Assembly (NCBI RefSeq): GCF_002005405.1
Contig: NZ_CP019728.1
Span: forward strand, 1,612,001-1,676,000
DNA: 64,000 bases
Direction of reading: 5' to 3'
From: Jeotgalibaca dankookensis
Lineage (GTDB): Bacteria; Bacillota; Bacilli; Lactobacillales; Aerococcaceae
The notes below the pieces were generated by a model. That model saw nothing but the letters and a program-made list of their open reading frames with translations. It had not been told where the DNA came from and did no database searches. Of this stretch, positions 8,534-17,108 are shown piece after piece. The stretch's first letter is position 1. Every line of letters starts with the position of its first letter. The position numbers were made by a program, and so were the translations under genes.

Positions 8534-9762
8534 ATGAAAAGTTTAAAGAAAATAAGTATGACCAATCAAATTATGATTGCGATGGTTTTAGGGATTGTAG
8601 CCGGATTGGTTTTTGGTCCTGCCATTGCACCTATTAATGTTATTGGACAAATTTTCCTGCGATTAATTCAGATGTCTGTTGTCGTTATGATTATGGGAGC
8701 AGTTATTGAGGCAGTTGGAACTTTAGATCCACAAATGCTCGGTAAATTAGGTGGGAAAATGGCTGCTTGGTTCCTAGGCGGGACTGCTTTGGCTGCTACA
8801 TTAGGTCTGATTTTAGGTTACCTTATTCAACTAGGTGCGGGTGTAGATATGCAAATCGACACAACTACCCCAGTTGCTACTGCTACCGGTAGTGTAACAG
8901 ATGTCCTTTTAGAATTCTTCCCGTCAAATGTTATCCAGTCGATGAGTACAGGAAATATGATTCAAGTTATCATTTTCTCTTTATTATTTGGTTTATCCAT
9001 TAGTTTATTAAGCTCACGACGGGATTTAGGCGCTCTCAAGGCAGGTCTTGAACAATTCAACGCCGTTATCTTACAACTTGTAACGACCGTTATGAAGCTT
9101 GCACCCTTGGGTATTTTGCACTACTAGCAAATGTTACAGGCGTCATAGGCCTAGCAGTTATCCTCCCTCTTGCAAAGTTCTTACTAGCAATGGCAATTGG
9201 GACAGTTATTTTCCTAGTATTATGGATTATTCTAACCGGTGCCATTGTTAAAGTAAACCCGATGCACATTGTTAAAGGTTTATCACGTATGACCGTTATG
9301 GCTCTAACAACAACTTCATCGGCAATTACCCTTCCTGTTAAAATGGAAGACCAAGAAGATAAATTGGGAGTGAGTCGTCGCATCTCACAACTAGTTGGTC
9401 CACTCGGTATGGCTATGAACAGTAACGGATTATCACTCTTTCTAGCGATCGCAGCGATTACGCTTGCACAATTTTATGGGTTAGAGTTCACCCTAACAAA
9501 TGCCATTCAGACGGTTACCTTATCGACACTTGCTACCCTTGATACCGTAGCGGTTCCAGGTGGCGGGTTAGTTGCATTAACGATTGTAATTCCAGCACTT
9601 GGACTTCCACCTGAAAGTATTGCACTTTTAACTGGTATTGATTGGTTCTCAGGTATGTTCCGTACAGTCCAAAACGTTGATGCAGATGCAACTATTGCCA
9701 TGATCTTAGCATATGGTGAAGGCGAATTAAACCATGAACGTATTAAAGAATTAAATGCTTAA
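8534..9762 (+). pseudogene. DAACS (dicarboxylate/amino acid:cation) symporter, frameshifted
   Basis: The two halves (8534-9117 and 9118-9762) are in different frames. The junction reads GGTATTTTGCACTA; one more T in the four-T run (9114-9117) gives LGIFALLANVTGV and one continuous protein of about 409 residues, the normal length. The family hallmarks are present: the serine-rich ALTTTSSAITLPV, the NSNGLSLFLAI region and VPGGGLV. The family imports glutamate, aspartate, serine or threonine or C4-acids with Na+ or H+. ATG 8534 follows AAGGAGTG. If the frameshift is real the protein stops after 197 residues and cannot work; a homopolymer assembly error would give the same picture. Confidence 0.85.
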
Positions 9763-10655: not shown

Positions 10656-10705
10656 AAAAAAGCGGTAAATTGAGAGAAAAGCTCAATTTACTCGCTTTAT
10701 TTTTA
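10656..10705 (-). terminator. Terminator of the flavin-reductase operon
   Basis: Stem AAAGCGgGTAAATTGAG-type arms (10659-10674 / 10682-10698) directly downstream of the stop at 10703, followed by A/T-rich sequence on the minus strand. Confidence 0.65.
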
Positions 10706-11896
10706 CCCTTTTGCTGATGCGCCGGAAACGGCATGAACTTCTTCGCCTTTATCTTTGACAGAAGCACTTGATACCGCGTTAACATCACCTTCTAATTTCA
10801 TTCCGGTTTGGGCTAAGTACCAATCAATAATTGGTTTAAAGTCTAAAATATATTCATTGATACCTGCATAATTACCTTCTGAATCATGGATTGCTTGATA
10901 GTTATGGACAACGAATTTATCTGGACCATGGGTTGGCACATTCACACGTACGGCATCAGTAGCGCCAGAACGTAATTCTTGAATGACCCATTCGACTCCC
11001 TTCAATGCTTTTTCAGGGTGACAAGCTGCTAATGGGTTACCCACTTGTTCTGGTTGACGTCCTGCCAACATTTCTTCCATTGGTTTCGTGTGGTTGTAGT
11101 ACAGGAACTGATTATTAGCATCTGCGTAAGTCAATTCCATTGGCATGGATGCAAAGAAATAGTTCAATTGGTCAACGGTCAAAAGACCGCGATCTAGCTT
11201 AACGTACGTATTACCTTCAACTGCTCCAACAGCTTCAGCTGCTTGTTCCAACCAATCATCGGCTAACATATCAATACCTTCTACGGTCGTTGAAACTGTG
11301 CCGGTTGCGTGCAAGTCCTCTGGTTGTGGTGCTGGTTTTTCTGTTTCTTCTAAAGCAGCAACCATCTTAACAAACTTCGTAAATTTCTCTAGACATGTTG
11401 CTAGGAACGCAATAGTCGTTTTATCTTTTAAATTATGATTTTCATCAAACGCTTTTTTTACTTCGCCTAATAAAAATTCATTACCAGGCATGACCACCGC
11501 GTTTACACCTGGGGCATTTAGAATTTGGCGCAAATGAATTTGTGCACGAGAAGAACCTTGGTCATAATAAGAAGCTCCTACAATCATAACGGGTTTTCCT
11601 TCGAGTGGATGAATTTTAAATGATAACCATTCCAAAGCACTCTTTAATCCAGCTGGGACCGAGTGGTTGTGTTCTGGTGTAGCAATTATAACGCCATCTG
11701 CTGCAATAATTTTTTGATTGATACTTTGAATTGCTTCACTGTCTGTTTGGTCTTTGCTTTGATTAAATAGAGGCAAATCTTTAATTTCAATCAATTCTAA
11801 ATCAAAGAGTGATCCAAATTGTTTTTTTATGTACTCTAGCAACAAACGGTTATATGACAAGTCAGCATTAGATCCTACAATTCCTACTATTTTCAT
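10703..11896 (-). CDS. FMN-reductase domain fused to PAS-like domain with flavinylation-type C-terminal tail
   Basis: 397 residues. Residues 1-180 are an NADPH-dependent FMN reductase fold (GIVGSNADLSYNRLL, the conserved ATPEHNHSVPAGLKSALEW loop near 95-113). Residues ~235-365 resemble the PAS domain that follows hemerythrin in DUF438 proteins (LTYADANNQFLYYN, IDWYLAQTGMKL). The tail 369-397 holds two copies of a short motif: VNAVSSAS (Ser376-Ser379) and VHAVSGAS (Ser391-Ser394). The second matches the Dxx(x)SGA(S/T) site at which ApbE attaches FMN to Ser/Thr; the first lacks the Gly. An ApbE gene lies two genes upstream in the same operon. A covalent FMN on Ser394 is therefore likely (inference). 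No signal peptide: cytoplasmic. Confidence 0.85.
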   Translation of the reverse strand: MKIVGIVGSNADLSYNRLLLEYIKKQFGSLFDLELIEIKDLPLFNQSKDQTDSEAIQSINQKIIAADGVIIATPEHNHSVPAGLKSALEWLSFKIHPLEGKPVMIVGASYYDQGSSRAQIHLRQILNAPGVNAVVMPGNEFLLGEVKKAFDENHNLKDKTTIAFLATCLEKFTKFVKMVAALEETEKPAPQPEDLHATGTVSTTVEGIDMLADDWLEQAAEAVGAVEGNTYVKLDRGLLTVDQLNYFFASMPMELTYADANNQFLYYNHTKPMEEMLAGRQPEQVGNPLAACHPEKALKGVEWVIQELRSGATDAVRVNVPTHGPDKFVVHNYQAIHDSEGNYAGINEYILDFKPIIDWYLAQTGMKLEGDVNAVSSASVKDKGEEVHAVSGASAKG

Positions 11897-11913
11897 TATA
11901 TACAGCTCCTATT

Positions 11914-12522
11914 CTATATTTCTTCCCAAGAGAAATTCTCAGCTTCTCTTTTATTAAGGTTATGCGAATGGTTGAGTTGCTTGCTAATATCAATAAAGGT
12001 TAAGAAATCTTCAAGTAATTCTTCAAGTCTTTCGACTTGCTCTGGATCCTTTAAATTCAGATCTTCATCAAAGGCTTGAAGGGAATGGCTTAATAAAAAT
12101 TCAGAACTTGGCATAATACGTGCTTGTAATTCTGGTGCATCTAGGACTTGACGTAAATGCATTTGAGCGCGTGAAGATCCCAACGTTCCATAAGAAGCGC
12201 CTGTTATCATAACTGGTTTATCCACAAATGGATAAATACCATACGACAACCAACTTAAAGCGCTGCTTAATGCAGCTGTAATAGATTGATCATACTCAGG
12301 TGTACTAATAATCACACCATCTGCGTCTACGATTTTATCAGCAATTTCTTGTGCTTCTTCAGGGATTTTTCTGTCTGCTGGTTTATTAAAGAGTGGTAAA
12401 TTATTAATTTCAACTAGTTCCATATCTATTTTATCTTGGAAATGTTTCTCCATAAATTGTAATAGTTGACGATTGGTAGAAAAATCAGAGTTTGTTCCTA
12501 CGAGACCAATAATTTTTTTCAT
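11914..12522 (-). CDS. NADPH-dependent FMN reductase family protein
   Basis: 202 residues. Flavodoxin-like fold with GLVGTNSDFSTNRQLLQF at the start, PLFNKPADRKIPEEA and the STPEYDQSITAALSSALSW loop (about residues 90-108). It is clearly homologous to the N-terminal half of the next gene, 17 bases downstream, from which it could have arisen by duplication, but lacks the PAS-like domain and tail. Likely transfers electrons from NAD(P)H to flavin, quinone or an azo-type acceptor. ATG 12522 follows AAAGGAAGTAACAACG. Middle gene of the regulator-apbE-reductase-reductase operon. Confidence 0.85.
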   Translation of the reverse strand: MKKIIGLVGTNSDFSTNRQLLQFMEKHFQDKIDMELVEINNLPLFNKPADRKIPEEAQEIADKIVDADGVIISTPEYDQSITAALSSALSWLSYGIYPFVDKPVMITGASYGTLGSSRAQMHLRQVLDAPELQARIMPSSEFLLSHSLQAFDEDLNLKDPEQVERLEELLEDFLTFIDISKQLNHSHNLNKREAENFSWEEI

Positions 12523-12546
12523 CGTTGTTACTTCCTTTCAATTCTT

Positions 12547-13470
12547 TCATTTATCTTTTTTTAATCCATGAGAATATGTAATATGACCATCTTTTGTAAT
12601 AACGAGACCTTCTATACCAGCTTCTTGGTCTATACATGACACTATATCATCTGATTGCTTACCATACAGACGTGTCGTCCATATTTCACCATCGACCGAA
12701 TTGTTTGACTGAATGGTTAAACTCGCCACATCCGTGGTAATTGGATAGCCAGTTTCTGGGTCAAGAATATGGTGATAGCTTTTCCCATCTTTTTCTAGGT
12801 GACGTTCATAGATTCCTGATGTAACAACCGATTGGTTGCTTATTTTTAAAACCGTCACATAATGGTCACGGGGAAGGACCGGATTTTGGATTCCAATTTT
12901 CCAGTAATCTTCTTTAAAATGAGCGGTATTTAGACCGATAATATTCCCACCCAGATTAACCAAAGCACGCTTAACGCCTTTACTTTTTAAATACTTAATG
13001 ATTAAATCTGCTATATATCCTTTAGCAAGTGATCCTAAATCGATTAACATTCCTTTTTGTTTTAAAAAGACAGTTTGGTTTTCTTCATCCAAAATAATGT
13101 CTTGCGGATCTGTTAAACGAAGCAACTGTTTAATTTCATCGTCCGAAGGTACCCTCGCATCACTGAAGCCAATACGCCAGGTTTGAACGAGTGGTCCGAT
13201 AGCGATATTTAAATGACTACCAGAAGCGCAGCTGTGTGCTTTGCCCATACGAATGAGTTCAAATAATTCAGGGTGAACACGAACAGCCTTTATACCAGCT
13301 TGTTTATTGATTGCCATCAGCTCGGAATTAGCACTATTAGCACTGAAACGATGCTCATAAATTTTTAGCTGCTTGACTACTTCGTCCATCCGCTCTTCCG
13401 CACCGTCATCTTCAATTAGTAAATCAATAACAGTTCCCATTAAACGGACTGTTATTTTCTCTTGCTTCAC
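12547..13470 (-). CDS. apbE: FAD:protein FMN transferase (ApbE family)
   Basis: 307 residues, GTG start. Family motifs are present: EHRFSANSANSELMAIN (~39-55), IDLGSLAKGYIAD (~148-160), ALVNLGGNI (~176-184) and YHHILDPETGYP (~237-248). The C-terminal metal/FAD site DGEIWTTRLYG (~264) differs from the common DALST form but keeps the acidic and Thr residues. ApbE attaches FMN from FAD to a Ser/Thr in SGAT-like motifs. There is no signal peptide or lipobox, so it acts in the cytoplasm, unlike the exported ApbE of electron-export systems. Its start overlaps the upstream regulator stop by GTGA, and the likely target is the motif-bearing reductase two genes downstream. Confidence 0.9.
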   Translation of the reverse strand: MKQEKITVRLMGTVIDLLIEDDGAEERMDEVVKQLKIYEHRFSANSANSELMAINKQAGIKAVRVHPELFELIRMGKAHSCASGSHLNIAIGPLVQTWRIGFSDARVPSDDEIKQLLRLTDPQDIILDEENQTVFLKQKGMLIDLGSLAKGYIADLIIKYLKSKGVKRALVNLGGNIIGLNTAHFKEDYWKIGIQNPVLPRDHYVTVLKISNQSVVTSGIYERHLEKDGKSYHHILDPETGYPITTDVASLTIQSNNSVDGEIWTTRLYGKQSDDIVSCIDQEAGIEGLVITKDGHITYSHGLKKDK

Positions 13471-14348
13471 TTATTCATCACTTCTTTTTCTAAAATAGCT
13501 AATTCTTTGAGTGCGATTTGATTTCGATTCAATTTTGAATAGGCTCTAGCGTCGTAAATTAGTTCTAAAACAACATTTTTAGGTTGTTTTTGTAATATTG
13601 CATTCTTCGCTAATTGGATAGCAGCACGAGCTACATAGTAGGTAACGTGATTGTCTGAGCATATAGAGATAGCATAACGAGCCAAAGCATTGCTTATTTC
13701 TATCTCATGAATGTTGGAATAAAAAACACTGGATTGAAAAACAATATTTAAAACACGCCACGTATCTTCCATCACTTTCGTTGGGTAATTATAAATTTTT
13801 TCTAGTACTTTATGAAAGTAAAATTCGGCTTTTTCTTGATCGTCTTCACGCGAGTAAATCATCCCGATACCTGTATACGCCAGCAAATAAAAAATTTCTG
13901 ATTCACTCGTTTGATCTGCTAATAAAATTTGGTCAAACATAAACAAAGTATCAATGACAGAAGCCCGTTGAAAAATCATAATGTAACCTTTCAAGTAGTG
14001 GTAACGCATCGCTAAAAGTGGACTCTCAATATCATTCATAGTGATAGCTTCCAACAATTCGGCTGCTTGTTCATATTCACTTGTGATTAAGAAAAATTCA
14101 GCTCGATTCATTTTTTCGATGGTATCGGTATGTCGAACACCAACTTTTGGAAAAAGTTCCCCCAACGGAAGGTTTAAACGATTGCATAACTTAATAAGGA
14201 GCTTTAGATTGGGTACTTGTCCATTATTCTCAAACCGACTTAGAGTCGCTTGCGTACAAATACCTTCAGCTAGTTCAATTTGGGAAAACCCCATTGCTTT
14301 ACGCTCTTGAATAAATCGTTCAATATTAATGACTACTCCCCCTAACAA
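13467..14348 (-). CDS. XRE/Rgg-like helix-turn-helix regulator with TPR-type C-terminus
   Basis: Up to 293 residues. The HTH is at about residues 8-60 (SQIELAEGICTQATLSRFENNG), followed by helical repeats as in Rgg/MutR/PlcR-type regulators. It is cotranscribed with apbE (stop and start overlap as GTGA), so it probably controls the flavin operon. The start is uncertain: the frame opens with TTG at 14348, but the ribosome site AGGGGGAG lies after it and points to an ATT codon at 14328-14330; either an ATT start or a lost ATG is possible. No short hydrophobic pheromone gene was seen in 14349-14556, so peptide sensing is not supported. Confidence 0.8.
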   Translation of the reverse strand: MLGGVVINIERFIQERKAMGFSQIELAEGICTQATLSRFENNGQVPNLKLLIKLCNRLNLPLGELFPKVGVRHTDTIEKMNRAEFFLITSEYEQAAELLEAITMNDIESPLLAMRYHYLKGYIMIFQRASVIDTLFMFDQILLADQTSESEIFYLLAYTGIGMIYSREDDQEKAEFYFHKVLEKIYNYPTKVMEDTWRVLNIVFQSSVFYSNIHEIEISNALARYAISICSDNHVTYYVARAAIQLAKNAILQKQPKNVVLELIYDARAYSKLNRNQIALKELAILEKEVMNK

Positions 14349-14556
14349 ACACGTTTCCTAATCTTTGTGTATCCATTCACATTGTTAAGACGCTTATGAG
14401 TATACTCTTTAGGAATATATCCGTCAACACATTATATAGTTTTTTATATAAAAAATATTTATTATTAATATAAAAAATCACTTATATTAATTAACCAAAA
14501 TAGCTACTGACATTAAAATAATTAGAGTATTATCTACATCACTTCTTAAGAGCAAA

Positions 14557-14604: not shown

Positions 14605-15306
14605 TTAACGTTTAGAAATAATTTTTAAGTAACGGTAGACACTTGATTCTGATACGTTCAAGACAGAAGCTACTTGGGAAATCGAGCCTTTAATCTGGAA
14701 AACGCCTTTCTTATCTAACAACTCTACCAGTTCAATCTTTCGTTCTTGGCTAATAGTATATCCTTCGTCAAATAAGGTTGGATCAACCACTTCCTCGATG
14801 ATATCAGAAACATTATCGGATAAAACTTCTACTACTTCTTCTGGAACATAGTTATCTAATGCAACTACCTTATTAGAAGTTACATGGGCAGGACTTACAT
14901 TCCTATTATCAAGCGAATCCGAATTGATGTTAGCTAATTCTAAAATACTATGAGCAAGCTCGATGTGTTTAGAGAAGTCCGTATTAATACAGAGCATGCC
15001 TTCTAAATTCCCAAGCGAATCTTTTAAAAAGAAGGTTGATCCTTGAACAGTGGCACCAGTTTTAATTTTTGCTTTGTAATTAGAAACAAAATCTCGTTTT
15101 TTATACTCTTCACTCTTTATTAAACCTAAGGCAAAACTAGTTAACGGTGAATCTGTCGTCCGTCCACTCACTTGGTTATTTACAATAGAAGCAATATAAG
15201 AATTTTTATCTTCTAATATGTGTAGAACAATTTCATAACGCGGGCCCAAAGCCGCTCCTAAAAAATGCGTCATAGATATATAAAAATCTAATTTCCCAGC
15301 TTCCAT
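14605..15306 (-). CDS. YheO/DauR-type PAS-HTH regulator
   Basis: 233 residues from ATG 15306 (AGGATGG ribosome site overlaps an ATG nine bases earlier). The N-terminal YheO-like PAS domain (about 5-105; ALGPRYEIVLHILED, GTTxGS-like GATVQGSTFFLKD) is followed by a variable linker and a C-terminal HTH (SISQVASVLNVSESSVYRYL, about 207-227). DauR, a known member, controls D-arginine catabolism together with a RidA gene. Here it is divergent from a RidA-permease-SerRS-DsdA operon, so regulation of D-serine use is a reasonable inference. The effector is unknown. Confidence 0.82.
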   Translation of the reverse strand: MEAGKLDFYISMTHFLGAALGPRYEIVLHILEDKNSYIASIVNNQVSGRTTDSPLTSFALGLIKSEEYKKRDFVSNYKAKIKTGATVQGSTFFLKDSLGNLEGMLCINTDFSKHIELAHSILELANINSDSLDNRNVSPAHVTSNKVVALDNYVPEEVVEVLSDNVSDIIEEVVDPTLFDEGYTISQERKIELVELLDKKGVFQIKGSISQVASVLNVSESSVYRYLKIISKR

Positions 15307-15605
15307 ACACACCATCCTATTACTATTTCTTTATATTTTTCCAATTATAGCAAGTTCGCGATAATTTATCAATTATAAATAGTAAATTTTTACTACGATA
15401 AAACGAAATCATTAGATTTCAGTTGCATTTAGATATGAATTCACTCATTTAAAATTCTCATTATTATTTCAGATTTCTTTTTTAACTATGTTAGGTTACA
15501 CGCAATATATAGTATAATAAACTATTTACAGATGAGAAATAAGAGAAAAAAACTTTTCTTTAAGGCTCTTATGTAATAATTAATTATTATGATAATAAAT
15601 TCTTA

Positions 15606-15634
15606 TTGACATTGTAAACGTTTTATTTTAAAGT
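15606..15634 (+). promoter_or_regulatory. Promoter of the D-serine operon
   Basis: TTGACA (15606-15611), 17-base spacer, TAAAGT (15629-15634). The rest of the 359-base gap 15307-15665 is A/T-rich with no gene or strong hairpin that I can support; operator sites of the divergent YheO-type regulator are expected here. Confidence 0.65.
15612..15626. promoter_or_regulatory. cre-like box inside the D-serine operon promoter
   Basis: TTGTAAACGTTTTAT matches cre with one mismatch and fills the spacer between -35 and -10, the classic place for CcpA repression. Confidence 0.55.
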
Positions 15635-15665
15635 TACCTTAGCTAAAGAAAGAGGAGGAAATAAT

Positions 15666-16025
15666 TTGAAAAATGAAATGAAGAGTGTGGGTCCCTATTC
15701 TATATCACGTTGGGCTGGTGATTTATTATTTATCTCTGGTCAATTACCTATAAATCAAGAAACAGGTGAGCTAGAAAAAGATTTTGTTGCACAATGCGAA
15801 CGTTCACTTGCTAATATTGAATTGGTTTTAGAAAATGAAGGCTTAACATTAGATGATGTGGTTAAATTAACTGTTTTAATGAATGACTTAGAAGATTTCG
15901 ATGAAATAAACAAATTATTTGAAAAACGTTTTAACCAACCATACCCAAGTCGTTCTACATTTGAAGTTTCCAGACTACCTAAAGACGCGCTAGTAGAAAT
16001 AGAAGCTATTGCTTTTAAAAAATAA
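15666..16025 (+). CDS. RidA-family imine/enamine deaminase
   Basis: 119 residues, TTG start after AGAGGAGG. The RidA (YjgF/YER057c) fold motifs GPYSISRWAGDLLFISGQ and YPSRSTFEVSRLPKDALVEIEAIA with the catalytic Arg near residue 101 are present. RidA hydrolyses reactive 2-aminoacrylate and similar imines released by PLP dehydratases to the keto acid and ammonia. As first gene of an operon ending with D-serine ammonia-lyase, which makes exactly such an intermediate, its role is protective. It precedes the permease gene by 21 bases. Confidence 0.93.
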   Translation: MKNEMKSVGPYSISRWAGDLLFISGQLPINQETGELEKDFVAQCERSLANIELVLENEGLTLDDVVKLTVLMNDLEDFDEINKLFEKRFNQPYPSRSTFEVSRLPKDALVEIEAIAFKK

Positions 16026-16046
16026 AAACAAACGAGGAGAAATTAT

Positions 16047-17108
16047 ATGGACATTATACTCGGAACGATCTTATTAATTTTGGTCTTATCACTTTTTACT
16101 TTGTTTAACTACAAAGCACCTCATGGCGCAAAAGCCATGGGAGCTTTAGCTGGAGCTGCGTGTGCTAGTTTTCTAGTTGAAGCATTCCACTTAGCCTTTT
16201 TTGGAAACGTTTTAGGTTTAGAATTCCTTGCTGGTGTCGGTGGTGCAAATGGGAGTCTCGGTGGTGTAGCTGCTGCTATCCTCGTTCCACTAGCGCTCGG
16301 AGTTTCACCCGTATATGCTGTTTTAGTTGGTCTTTCTGTTTCCGGTATGGGAATTTTACCTGGATTTATTGCTGGCTATCTCATTTCATTTGTTGTTAAA
16401 TGGTTAGAAGAAAAAGTTCCCGGTGGTCTTGACCTAATCGTTATTATTATCGTTGCTGCACCACTATCTCGCTTAATCGCTGTTGCTAGTTCACCCCTAG
16501 TGGATGCAACACTCCTTCAAATTGGTGAAATCCTTATCTCCACTGCTGATTCTAGTCCAATTATTATGGGAATTGTTTTAGGTGGTATTCTAACTGTTGT
16601 TGCGACTGCACCACTAAGTTCAATGGCGCTAACCGCTATGTTAGGTTTAACTGGTATTCCCATGGCAATTGGCGCGCTAGCCGTTTTCGGTTCTTCCTTT
16701 ATGAACTACGTATTATTTAGTAAAATGAAGTTTGGAGATAAAAAAGATACCATTGCAGTTGCGATTGAACCTTTAACACAAGCAGACATTATTTCTGCCA
16801 ACCCAATCCCTGTCTATGCAACGAATTTTATTGGTGGCGCAGCAAGTGGTGTGATTGTCTCCTTAATGGGACTTATTAATAATACTCCTGGTACAGCTAC
16901 ACCAATTGCAGGTTTTGCGGTTATGTTCGCTTATAATCCTGCAAATAAAGTTCTCATTGCAGCAGCTGGATGCATTATCGTCAGTGTTCTAGCTGGATTC
17001 TTAGGCGCTCACCTTTTCAAAAATTTCAAAATTATTACCGCTGCCGAACTACGTCAAGATACCTTAGGAACAACCAGCCCAGTAATAGCTGAACCATTGG
17101 AGGGATAA
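16047..17108 (+). CDS. EIIC-like membrane permease (PTS_EIIC_2 type), first copy
   Basis: 353 residues, about ten membrane segments, glycine- and alanine-rich, with the pattern of the PTS_EIIC_2 family. No EIIA or EIIB partner is present nearby and there is no cytoplasmic phosphoryl-transfer domain, so it probably works as a non-PTS permease. It lies between ridA and the SerRS gene (3 bases to the latter) in the DsdA operon, which makes D-serine or a related amino acid the best guess for the substrate. A homologue in the same arrangement type lies at 21053. Substrate assignment is inference from context. Confidence 0.75.
   Translation: MDIILGTILLILVLSLFTLFNYKAPHGAKAMGALAGAACASFLVEAFHLAFFGNVLGLEFLAGVGGANGSLGGVAAAILVPLALGVSPVYAVLVGLSVSGMGILPGFIAGYLISFVVKWLEEKVPGGLDLIVIIIVAAPLSRLIAVASSPLVDATLLQIGEILISTADSSPIIMGIVLGGILTVVATAPLSSMALTAMLGLTGIPMAIGALAVFGSSFMNYVLFSKMKFGDKKDTIAVAIEPLTQADIISANPIPVYATNFIGGAASGVIVSLMGLINNTPGTATPIAGFAVMFAYNPANKVLIAAAGCIIVSVLAGFLGAHLFKNFKIITAAELRQDTLGTTSPVIAEPLEG

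Follow-up and report, generated by a model that had tools for sequence, protein, structure and literature searches.

We analyzed a window of 64,000 nucleotides from the genome of Jeotgalibaca dankookensis, and found in it a four-gene operon that may encode an NADH-driven flavin reductase acting in the cytosol, of the same type as FRedA/FRedB and LjPAS from Lactobacillus johnsonii. Here the PAS domain is fused to one of the two reductases, and the C-terminal tail of the fusion protein would be loaded with FMN by ApbE and serve as a tethered substrate or relay. This reading draws on the analogy with L. johnsonii, and we give it a probability of about one half.

The four genes lie on the minus strand, as do all features given below, with gaps of 17 and 24 bp and one overlap of 4 bp. 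The operon starts with an HTH_3 transcriptional regulator (13467..14348; Pfam HTH_3, 1.6e-11), followed by ApbE, an FAD:protein FMN transferase of 307 aa without signal peptide (12547..13470; Pfam ApbE, 7.8e-76), the tail-less partner reductase RED1 (202 aa, 11914..12522; Pfam FMN_red, 5.7e-33), and RED_PAS (397 aa, 10703..11896; Pfam FMN_red, 1.1e-39, and PAS_10, 9.8e-27), which ends in a motif-bearing tail. An earlier sequence-only reading of this DNA had given the same ORFs, gene order, and coordinates. A terminator-like hairpin (10665..10691), which is a consensus match only, lies directly past the stop codon of RED_PAS, and a counterpart can be read on the opposite strand. The scan gave six terminator-like sites, whereas shuffles gave 3.1 (sd 2.1). 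Evidence for a promoter-like site upstream of the regulator (14399..14427) is weak, since the 16 such sites found compare with 14.7 in shuffles and the promoter scan is thus without weight by itself.

RED_PAS starts directly with its FMN_red domain (residues 1-145, 11462..11896; PF03358). This domain matches ChrR and other FMN_red structures in Foldseek, and is 51% identical to RED1 across 181 residues. The top Foldseek match of the PAS_10 domain (residues 244-353, 10838..11167; PF13596) is 2qkp, the C-terminal domain of SMU_1151c of S. mutans. The tail (residues 365-397, 10706..10804, limits set by script) is predicted to be disordered from residue 371, with a pLDDT below 50 for residues 371-397, and the pTM of 0.52 makes the interdomain geometry of the model unreliable. 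Pfam identifies neither FMN_bind (PF04205) nor FAD_binding_2 domains in RED_PAS, and the only FMN_bind match of the genome is a lipoprotein at another locus. Heme was considered as a ligand of the PAS domain because Cys292-His293-Pro294 is invariant in a 60-row alignment; this candidate was rejected, as Val replaces the Cys in L. lactis and other copies. The absence of a signal peptide in ApbE, already proposed from the sequence, agrees with a simple test of hydrophobicity and lipobox, which finds no signal-like N-terminus in the operon protein; the remaining ApbE ORFs of the tested loci (own-genome copies left out) lack one as well, in 61 of 61 cases. The other ApbE of the same genome has a lipobox. 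With a signal-less ApbE and a RED_PAS that opens with its FMN_red domain, enzyme and candidate substrate are predicted to share one compartment, as expected of an ApbE substrate.

To characterize the tail across homologues, we took the best 80 of 82 relatives and removed L080 and L082, which lack the PAS domain or tail, and L083, which has another architecture. This left 77 loci, or 78 tails with the window. All 78, which come from full-length homologues, carry a loose motif two or more times: one pattern gives two, three, and four copies in 43, 23, and 12 tails, and a second gives two, three, four, and five copies in 42, 24, 11, and 1 (205 copies in total, including one poor match in L055). 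Chance is ruled out as an explanation, since the remaining ORFs of the loci, 199,168 aa in all, contain the same motif only 19 times, and the 28,665 aa of RED_PAS proteins outside the tail contain none. In this set drawn from the best 80 of 82 relatives, the first motif position is Asp in 201 of the 205 copies, 77 of the 78 tails have a D-x-x-[S/T/A]-[G/S]-A-[S/T] copy, and 56 have the strict form D-x-x-[S/T]-G-A-[S/T]. None of 80 RED1 proteins carries the motif (own-genome copies left out), and the tail is thus specific to RED_PAS. Among relatives, one tail has seven motifs and two proteins have nine motif-like sites, a number seen together with three PAS domains. A two-PAS protein of G112 has no motif. 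Some motif-bearing PAS proteins stand alone, without FMN_red. From these sequences, the tails of the RED_PAS family are very probably flavinylated, as a conserved ApbE substrate.

The genomic context of the family is in line with this. Among the best 80 of 82 relatives, RED1 adjoins RED_PAS in 77 of 77 loci, ApbE is local in 60 and elsewhere in the genome for the other 17, and a homologue of the regulator is found in 33. Within the order, 122 of 295 genomes are carriers and none of these lacks ApbE, against 31 of the 173 non-carriers (Fisher p 2.2e-8). Since ApbE is widespread here, with 264 of the 295 genomes encoding it, this co-occurrence is supportive only. The carriers comprise 119 genomes plus G057, G310, and G119, where the protein was seen at full length; three genomes with divergent fusions (G085, G163, and G238), which also have ApbE, were left out of this number, as were genomes in which the PAS-tail protein is separate. 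The 31 genomes without ApbE comprise 20 that are named and 11 obtained by elimination from the table. The sequence-only reading had proposed searching homologues for the motif and counting their adjacency to apbE, and had regarded a lack of conservation in homologues that co-occur with ApbE as evidence against flavinylation; the counts above show a conserved motif and ApbE in every carrier.

ORF clustering of the loci, own-genome copies included, placed the reductases in 82 loci (RED1 and RED_PAS, being homologous, form a single cluster), ApbE in 65, and the regulator in 35. A conserved neighbor acting as electron acceptor was sought and discarded, as all other families occur in at most 12 loci. 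The rarer neighbors include a glutathione peroxidase (5 loci), MsrA (4), a hemerythrin-type PAS protein (4), a nitroreductase, and an FAD_binding_2 gene. In plasmid-borne copies the genes travel as a set, which in one E. faecium plasmid lies between IS1216 copies; a L. lactis plasmid encodes a homologue whose motifs are intact (WP_011915228.1). A wide spread in the phylum was not retained: at E 1e-60 only 2 of 398 genomes in a sparse sample had a match, both in the order of the window. Relatives are also listed under Oceanobacillus, Bacillus, Lederbergia, and others, and RED_PAS is thus not confined to this order.

The window protein is a less convincing case than the family at large, because Asp is missing from its two motif copies. 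Copy 1 (NAVSSAS, residues 373-379, 10760..10780) has Ser379 as candidate FMN site and copy 2 (HAVSGAS, residues 388-394, 10715..10735) has Ser394. The sequence-only reading had placed Ser376, Ser377, Ser379, Ser391, and Ser394 correctly. Its description of the Ser391-Ser394 copy as near canonical is too favorable, as the first motif position is occupied by Asn373 in copy 1 and His388 in copy 2; copy 1 also has Ser for Gly. We consider the window RED_PAS itself to be probably flavinylated. That the tail in this genome is no longer flavinylated, leaving RED_PAS a plain FMN reductase, is doubtful, even if this is the only one of the 78 tails (best 80 of 82 relatives) without Asp in any copy and 5 of 5 same-genus relatives (L152 among them being the contig already included in the 78 as L018) keep it in every copy. 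An Asp-to-Ala change on another ApbE target had minor effects only (PMC12052999, accessible portion), and the window retains both the acceptor serines and an intact ApbE operon.

How such a tail could work is suggested by L. johnsonii, where FRedA and FRedB were described in 2015 as an NADH-oxidising FMN reductase heterodimer that forms H2O2, with FMN as acceptor at a Km of about 20 µM (PMC4500961; here and below from the accessible parts of that paper). Like FRedA/FRedB-LjPAS, the window operon has two adjacent FMN_red proteins and a PAS_10 domain, whereas in L. johnsonii the PAS protein is a separate gene (PMC4500961). Its C-terminus, deduced from the primers of that paper, is SGASEY, and six related stand-alone PAS proteins (L127-L132) end in the same way. 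LjPAS has hitherto been regarded as a brake on peroxide formation. In the mechanism that we propose, ApbE would move FMN from FAD onto the tail serines, as it does on Lactococcus FMN_red tails. RED1 and the FMN_red domain of RED_PAS would form an NADH-oxidising heterodimer with two non-covalent FMN sites, as in L. johnsonii, and would reduce the tail-bound FMNs instead of, or alongside, free FMN, the acceptor used in vitro. The reduced tethered flavins would then hand their electrons on, most simply to O2 to give H2O2, the product that the L. johnsonii enzyme forms when supplied with free FMN (PMC4500961), or to another acceptor. The PAS domain may dock, gate, or sense. Overall, the tail FMNs may well be tethered substrate or relay flavins of the NADH-driven heterodimer. 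Speaking against this reading, LjPAS in its unmodified form left the activity of the preformed heterodimer unchanged, and FRedA/B is active with free FMN (PMC4500961).

Another role, put forward for FMN_red tails in PMC11334425 (accessible portion) from AlphaFold models that place the tail near the flavin site, is that the tail FMN fills a loose FMN site of the heterodimer and stops cofactor loss without adding a redox center. The heterodimer does bind FMN as cofactor only moderately, at two sites with a Kd of about 2 µM (PMC4500961). We nevertheless consider anchoring rather unlikely, since many relatives have more motifs than sites: at least three copies occur in 36 of 78 tails (best 80 of 82 relatives), the proteins with seven and nine go further, and motifs also occur on PAS proteins without FMN_red. 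As the heterodimer is cytosolic, loss of flavin from the cell does not account for anchoring.

PAS domains often act as sensors, and PAS domain and tail could mainly sense redox state or oxygen and thereby control how the reductase pair assembles and how active it is, with the tail flavin as the sensing element. Preincubation of LjPAS with FRedB halved the initial rate, and the ljpas transcript changed more than threefold with aeration, in directions that are opposite in the abstract and the results (PMC4500961). Yet LjPAS was produced without co-expressed ApbE, and thus probably without its flavins, and it had no effect in a two-hybrid test (PMC4500961). Several flavins per tail also exceed the needs of a sensor, which makes this role unlikely. 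Finally, it is very improbable that the tail serves as electron donor in trans for an FAD_binding_2 reductase on another chain, the counterpart of what FMN_bind does in HcrB-like enzymes within a single chain. An FAD_binding_2 gene directly precedes RED1 and RED_PAS in one genome (L121), and FMN_red, FMN_bind, and FAD_binding_2 share a chain in the sister architecture L083, but no other examined RED_PAS locus has such a gene immediately next to the pair; the sole further match is a 26% hit about 2 kb off in L009.

Extending the tethered-relay reading beyond the window, we tentatively suggest that lactic acid bacteria could have cytosolic flavin chains, in which an NADH reductase pair that forms peroxide transfers electrons to two to about nine ApbE-attached FMNs on disordered linkers after PAS domains. 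On this view LjPAS would represent the enzyme's own tethered substrate before loading, and the published activity measurements on it would have been made without its flavins. If true, this would join two separate lines of work, on ApbE flavinylation and on the H2O2-making flavin reductase of lactobacilli, and make the latter an ApbE-dependent enzyme, whose kinetics, obtained with free FMN and ApbE-less LjPAS, would have to be measured again on flavinylated protein. Flavinylation at multiple sites would moreover take place within the cytosol, without an FMN_bind domain, where it is not explained by stopping flavin loss to the outside.

Several of these components have precedents. The sequence-only reading is right in placing a signal-less ApbE beside a motif-tailed reductase-PAS protein, but such proteins are not "little described": gel experiments published in 2024 showed that ApbE flavinylates the C-terminal tails of Lactococcus FMN_red proteins, the covalent FMN being gone once the acceptor residue was mutated (PMC11334425), and the L. 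johnsonii heterodimer, as well as PAS-FMN_red fusions in other lactic acid bacteria (Lp2732, EF1227), were pointed out in 2015 (PMC4500961). The accessible text of PMC4500961 refers neither to ApbE nor to flavinylation or covalent flavin, and we found no text, among sources accessible in part, joining ApbE tail flavinylation to the FRedA/B-LjPAS system. Like the class of PMC11334425, RED_PAS combines FMN_red (PF03358), an unstructured C-terminal extension with motifs, and a nearby apbE; the window protein has these features without the motif Asp. That class has one or two motifs, whereas RED_PAS tails have up to five and some relatives more, and the PAS domain, partner reductase, and peroxide formation go unmentioned for Lactococcus FMN_red in the accessible portion of that paper. 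The 2024 Lactococcus protein (WP_021723379.1) was not found on two plasmids of strain A12 with numerically close accessions.

The L083 protein, a single FMN_red-FMN_bind-FAD_binding_2 chain with RED1 and ApbE nearby, appears to correspond to HcrB of the hydroxycinnamate reductase HcrA/HcrB. A cinnamate reductase of Vibrio ruber resembles HcrAB. Like RED1 and RED_PAS, HcrA and HcrB are two reductase-type proteins of which one extends into an output module (PMC10295242, accessible portion); this module includes FAD_binding_2 in HcrB, while in RED_PAS, without FMN_bind or FAD_binding_2, it is the PAS domain and tail. The soluble fumarate reductase of Klebsiella pneumoniae is likewise a cytoplasmic target of a signal-less ApbE, with a fumarate reductase in place of the FMN_red-PAS tail (PMC12052999). 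Several FMNs per chain, as beads on a string, are also known from multi-flavinylated FMN_bind proteins (PMC8238504 and PMC11334425, accessible portions). These have folded FMN_bind domains and are generally predicted to be extracytosolic, whereas in RED_PAS relatives the candidate sites lie in linkers after PAS domains, in a protein encoded beside an ApbE of the cytosolic type.

The operon lies on the minus strand of the window (10703-14348), tightly packed in the order HTH_3 regulator, ApbE, RED1 (an FMN_red reductase of 202 aa) and RED_PAS (an FMN_red-PAS_10 protein of 397 aa with a short C-terminal tail), and a terminator-like hairpin follows the stop codon of RED_PAS, its last gene. The sequence-only reading had placed two SGAS-like flavinylation motifs in this last protein (NAVSSAS, residues 373-379, and HAVSGAS, residues 388-394), and its gene and motif positions were correct on re-checking. 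In the AlphaFold model of RED_PAS, the FMN_red and PAS parts are mostly confident, residues 371 to the end have a pLDDT below 50, and the interdomain arrangement is unreliable (pTM 0.52). The operon adjoins a PAS_6/HTH_22 regulator gene (minus strand) and L-PSP/RidA-type and PTS EIIC_2 genes (plus strand) at 14605-17108. Two successive plus-strand ORFs at 8534-9762 may be fragments of one transporter gene, which they resemble.

A scan of genome contigs found 82 related loci, of which we used the best 80; 77 of these encode RED_PAS at full length, and the window brings the total to 78. All 78 tails carry motif copies, two in 42 tails, three in 24, four in 11 and five in one, for a total of 205. 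A loose motif pattern had no match in the 28,665 aa of RED_PAS proteins outside the tail in these loci, and 19 matches in 199,168 aa of their other ORFs. In the alignment the motifs are kept and the linkers vary, and Ser frequently takes the place of Gly (64 of the 205 copies). Hence, the tail is a real, conserved feature, and the conservation that the sequence-only reading expected in homologues co-occurring with ApbE was borne out.

RED1 adjoins RED_PAS in all 77 loci, and none of the 80 RED1 proteins examined has the motif. ApbE is encoded locally in 60 of the 77, and elsewhere in the genome in all of the other 17. Among 295 genomes of the order, none of the 122 counted RED_PAS carriers lacks ApbE, against 31 of the other 173 (Fisher p 2.2e-8); some of those 173 have a divergent or split version and were left out of the carrier count. 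This co-occurrence is supportive rather than strong evidence of ApbE dependence, because ApbE is common in the order (264/295 genomes). In a larger sample, a Lactococcus RED_PAS matches 173 of 395 genomes at E 1e-100; phylum-wide, 2 of 398 genomes have a RED_PAS match at E 1e-60. The genome of the window has two ApbE genes. The second, with a lipobox, adjoins a lipoprotein-type gene that is the genome's only FMN_bind match (L003:320-1995), and the two likely form an extracytosolic flavinylation pair. The ApbE of the operon has no signal-like N-terminus, and this cytosolic enzyme may have further targets in the genome.

Two loci, L080 and L082, have both FMN_red genes and neither PAS nor tail. 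ApbE is absent from the L082 genome and occurs once, as a 375-aa frame, in the L080 genome; G065 and G177, taken as the corresponding genomes, gave no PAS match. In the genus g26, none of the 13 sampled genomes has a full-length fusion at E 1e-100, and all 13 have PAS-only matches and ApbE. These cases indicate, at the level of sequence, that the tail goes with PAS more than with FMN_red. Of the 12 longer PAS proteins (L127-L138), six terminate in SGASEY and contain three motifs each, four more have a motif-like sequence at or near the end, and the ends of L133 and L135 read out of frame. The shorter second PAS proteins (L143-L150) end in DAESGASEL in seven cases and in DVSSGASHN in the eighth, and a stand-alone PAS protein in L062 has two motifs. 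The exceptions are a two-PAS protein of G112, which lacks the motif, and the L118 fusion, where PAS is reduced yet two motifs are kept. In another G112 protein (L169, 447-codon frame, minus strand), two FMN_bind domains precede PAS_10 and an additional SGAS motif, a composition that would tie the PAS_10 type to covalent flavin independently.

Some relatives are more elaborate. One RED_PAS tail has seven motifs (G116, L112:4247-5851, plus strand). Proteins of 882 and 894 aa in G057 and G310, of the same genus, combine FMN_red with three PAS copies (three PAS_10 stretches by Pfam in G057) and have motif clusters on both sides of every PAS copy; the pattern counts nine motifs per protein, of which one in G310 is a poor match. 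A related protein of G275 has a partial third PAS and no motif at its end. Such proteins, with FMN_red, then three PAS_10-like copies and motif clusters between, are encoded at L109:3497-6145 (minus) and L110:4817-7501 (plus), both with nine motifs by pattern, and at L111:4790-6931 (plus); they could possibly be multi-flavin chains.

The gene set also occurs on plasmids. In Enterococcus faecium (L085:4286-9959) regulator, apbE, RED1 and RED_PAS are flanked by two IS1216 copies, and 95 Enterococcus plasmid records have a RED_PAS match. All eight Lactococcus lactis plasmid records match, the full-length match being the PAS fusion beside apbE (neighbourhood viewed in three). The gene is annotated in seven; the copy on pA12-4 of strain A12 (L158:26143-27353) is unannotated and apparently broken, beside intact RED1 and apbE. 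On L. lactis plasmids (L084:3043-6871) the set comes after a Crp/Fnr-family regulator gene, near class Ib ribonucleotide reductase genes. Elsewhere, a hemerythrin-PAS_10 protein (in L021 also with DUF438) and glutathione peroxidase are encoded within several kb of the operon (L020, L021, L027, L047), and a FAD_binding_2 flavoprotein gene lies directly upstream of RED1 and RED_PAS in L121:1788-5281.

The sections consulted of a review (PMC12052999) give the motif as D-x-x-[S/T]-G-A-[S/T], call the Asp strictly conserved, and report that Asp-to-Ala has only minor effects and that Gly-to-Ala leaves about 50% flavinylation. In the window the Asp is replaced by Asn in the first copy and by His in the second, making this the only one of the 78 tails without Asp; five same-genus relatives, one of them (L018, Jeotgalibaca caeni) already among the 78, have it in every copy. 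The window copy is thus atypical and possibly weakened, and from its sequence we put the chance that this RED_PAS is itself flavinylated at roughly two in three.

LjPAS, the separate PAS protein of the H2O2-forming FMN reductase heterodimer FRedA/FRedB of Lactobacillus johnsonii, was probably unmodified when studied, since it was produced in E. coli without co-expressed ApbE and the ApbE of that host is periplasmic. According to the parts of that study consulted (PMC4500961), the heterodimer has binding sites for two FMN molecules (Kd about 2 uM) and passes electrons from NADH to FMN (Km about 20 uM), yielding 0.56 H2O2 per NADH, and a double mutant in the reductases, constructed by another group, is without H2O2. 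Preincubation of LjPAS with FRedB lowers the rate, an effect not seen on the formed heterodimer. The same parts point out LjPAS-FMN_red fusions in other species and never use the terms ApbE, flavinyl or covalent; translation of their primers gives LjPAS a C-terminal SGASEY. They are inconsistent on expression, with LjPAS repressed anaerobically in the abstract and its transcript down about threefold on aeration in the results. UV gels in the text consulted of PMC11334425 show that Lactococcus FMN_red proteins bearing motifs at the C-terminus become flavinylated, and that this requires the motif residue; its results describe co-expression with the cognate apbE, and its methods an in vitro assay with the ApbE of Listeria.

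Joining this heterodimer biochemistry with this tail flavinylation, we propose that the tail FMNs would serve as a tethered electron-accepting substrate of a RED1/RED_PAS-type heterodimer, which the tail could plausibly reach since its 33 residues span at most roughly 100 angstrom. The main rival is that flavinylation anchors the FMN cofactor; as the whole story, this fits poorly with the 36 of the 78 tails that have at least three motifs and with tails on proteins without FMN_red. The reading that best fits the operon is an ApbE-dependent form of a known peroxide-forming reductase. The sequence-only reading had called such a reductase-PAS fusion with a flavinylated tail little described, which is too strong, as the fusion of FMN_red with PAS (2015, PMC4500961) and the flavinylation of FMN_red tails (2024, PMC11334425) are already known; in the portions of the open-access literature searched, we found no link between flavinylation and the FMN_red-PAS system. 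A further locus (L083), with RED1 and an FMN_red-FMN_bind-FAD_binding_2 protein, resembles the hydroxycinnamate reductase HcrA/HcrB as described in the parts consulted of PMC10295242, and the paired reductases therefore serve as input module for at least two different outputs. The RED_PAS system is not a new class, and joins two literatures, that of flavinylated FMN_red tails and that of the peroxide-forming reductase.
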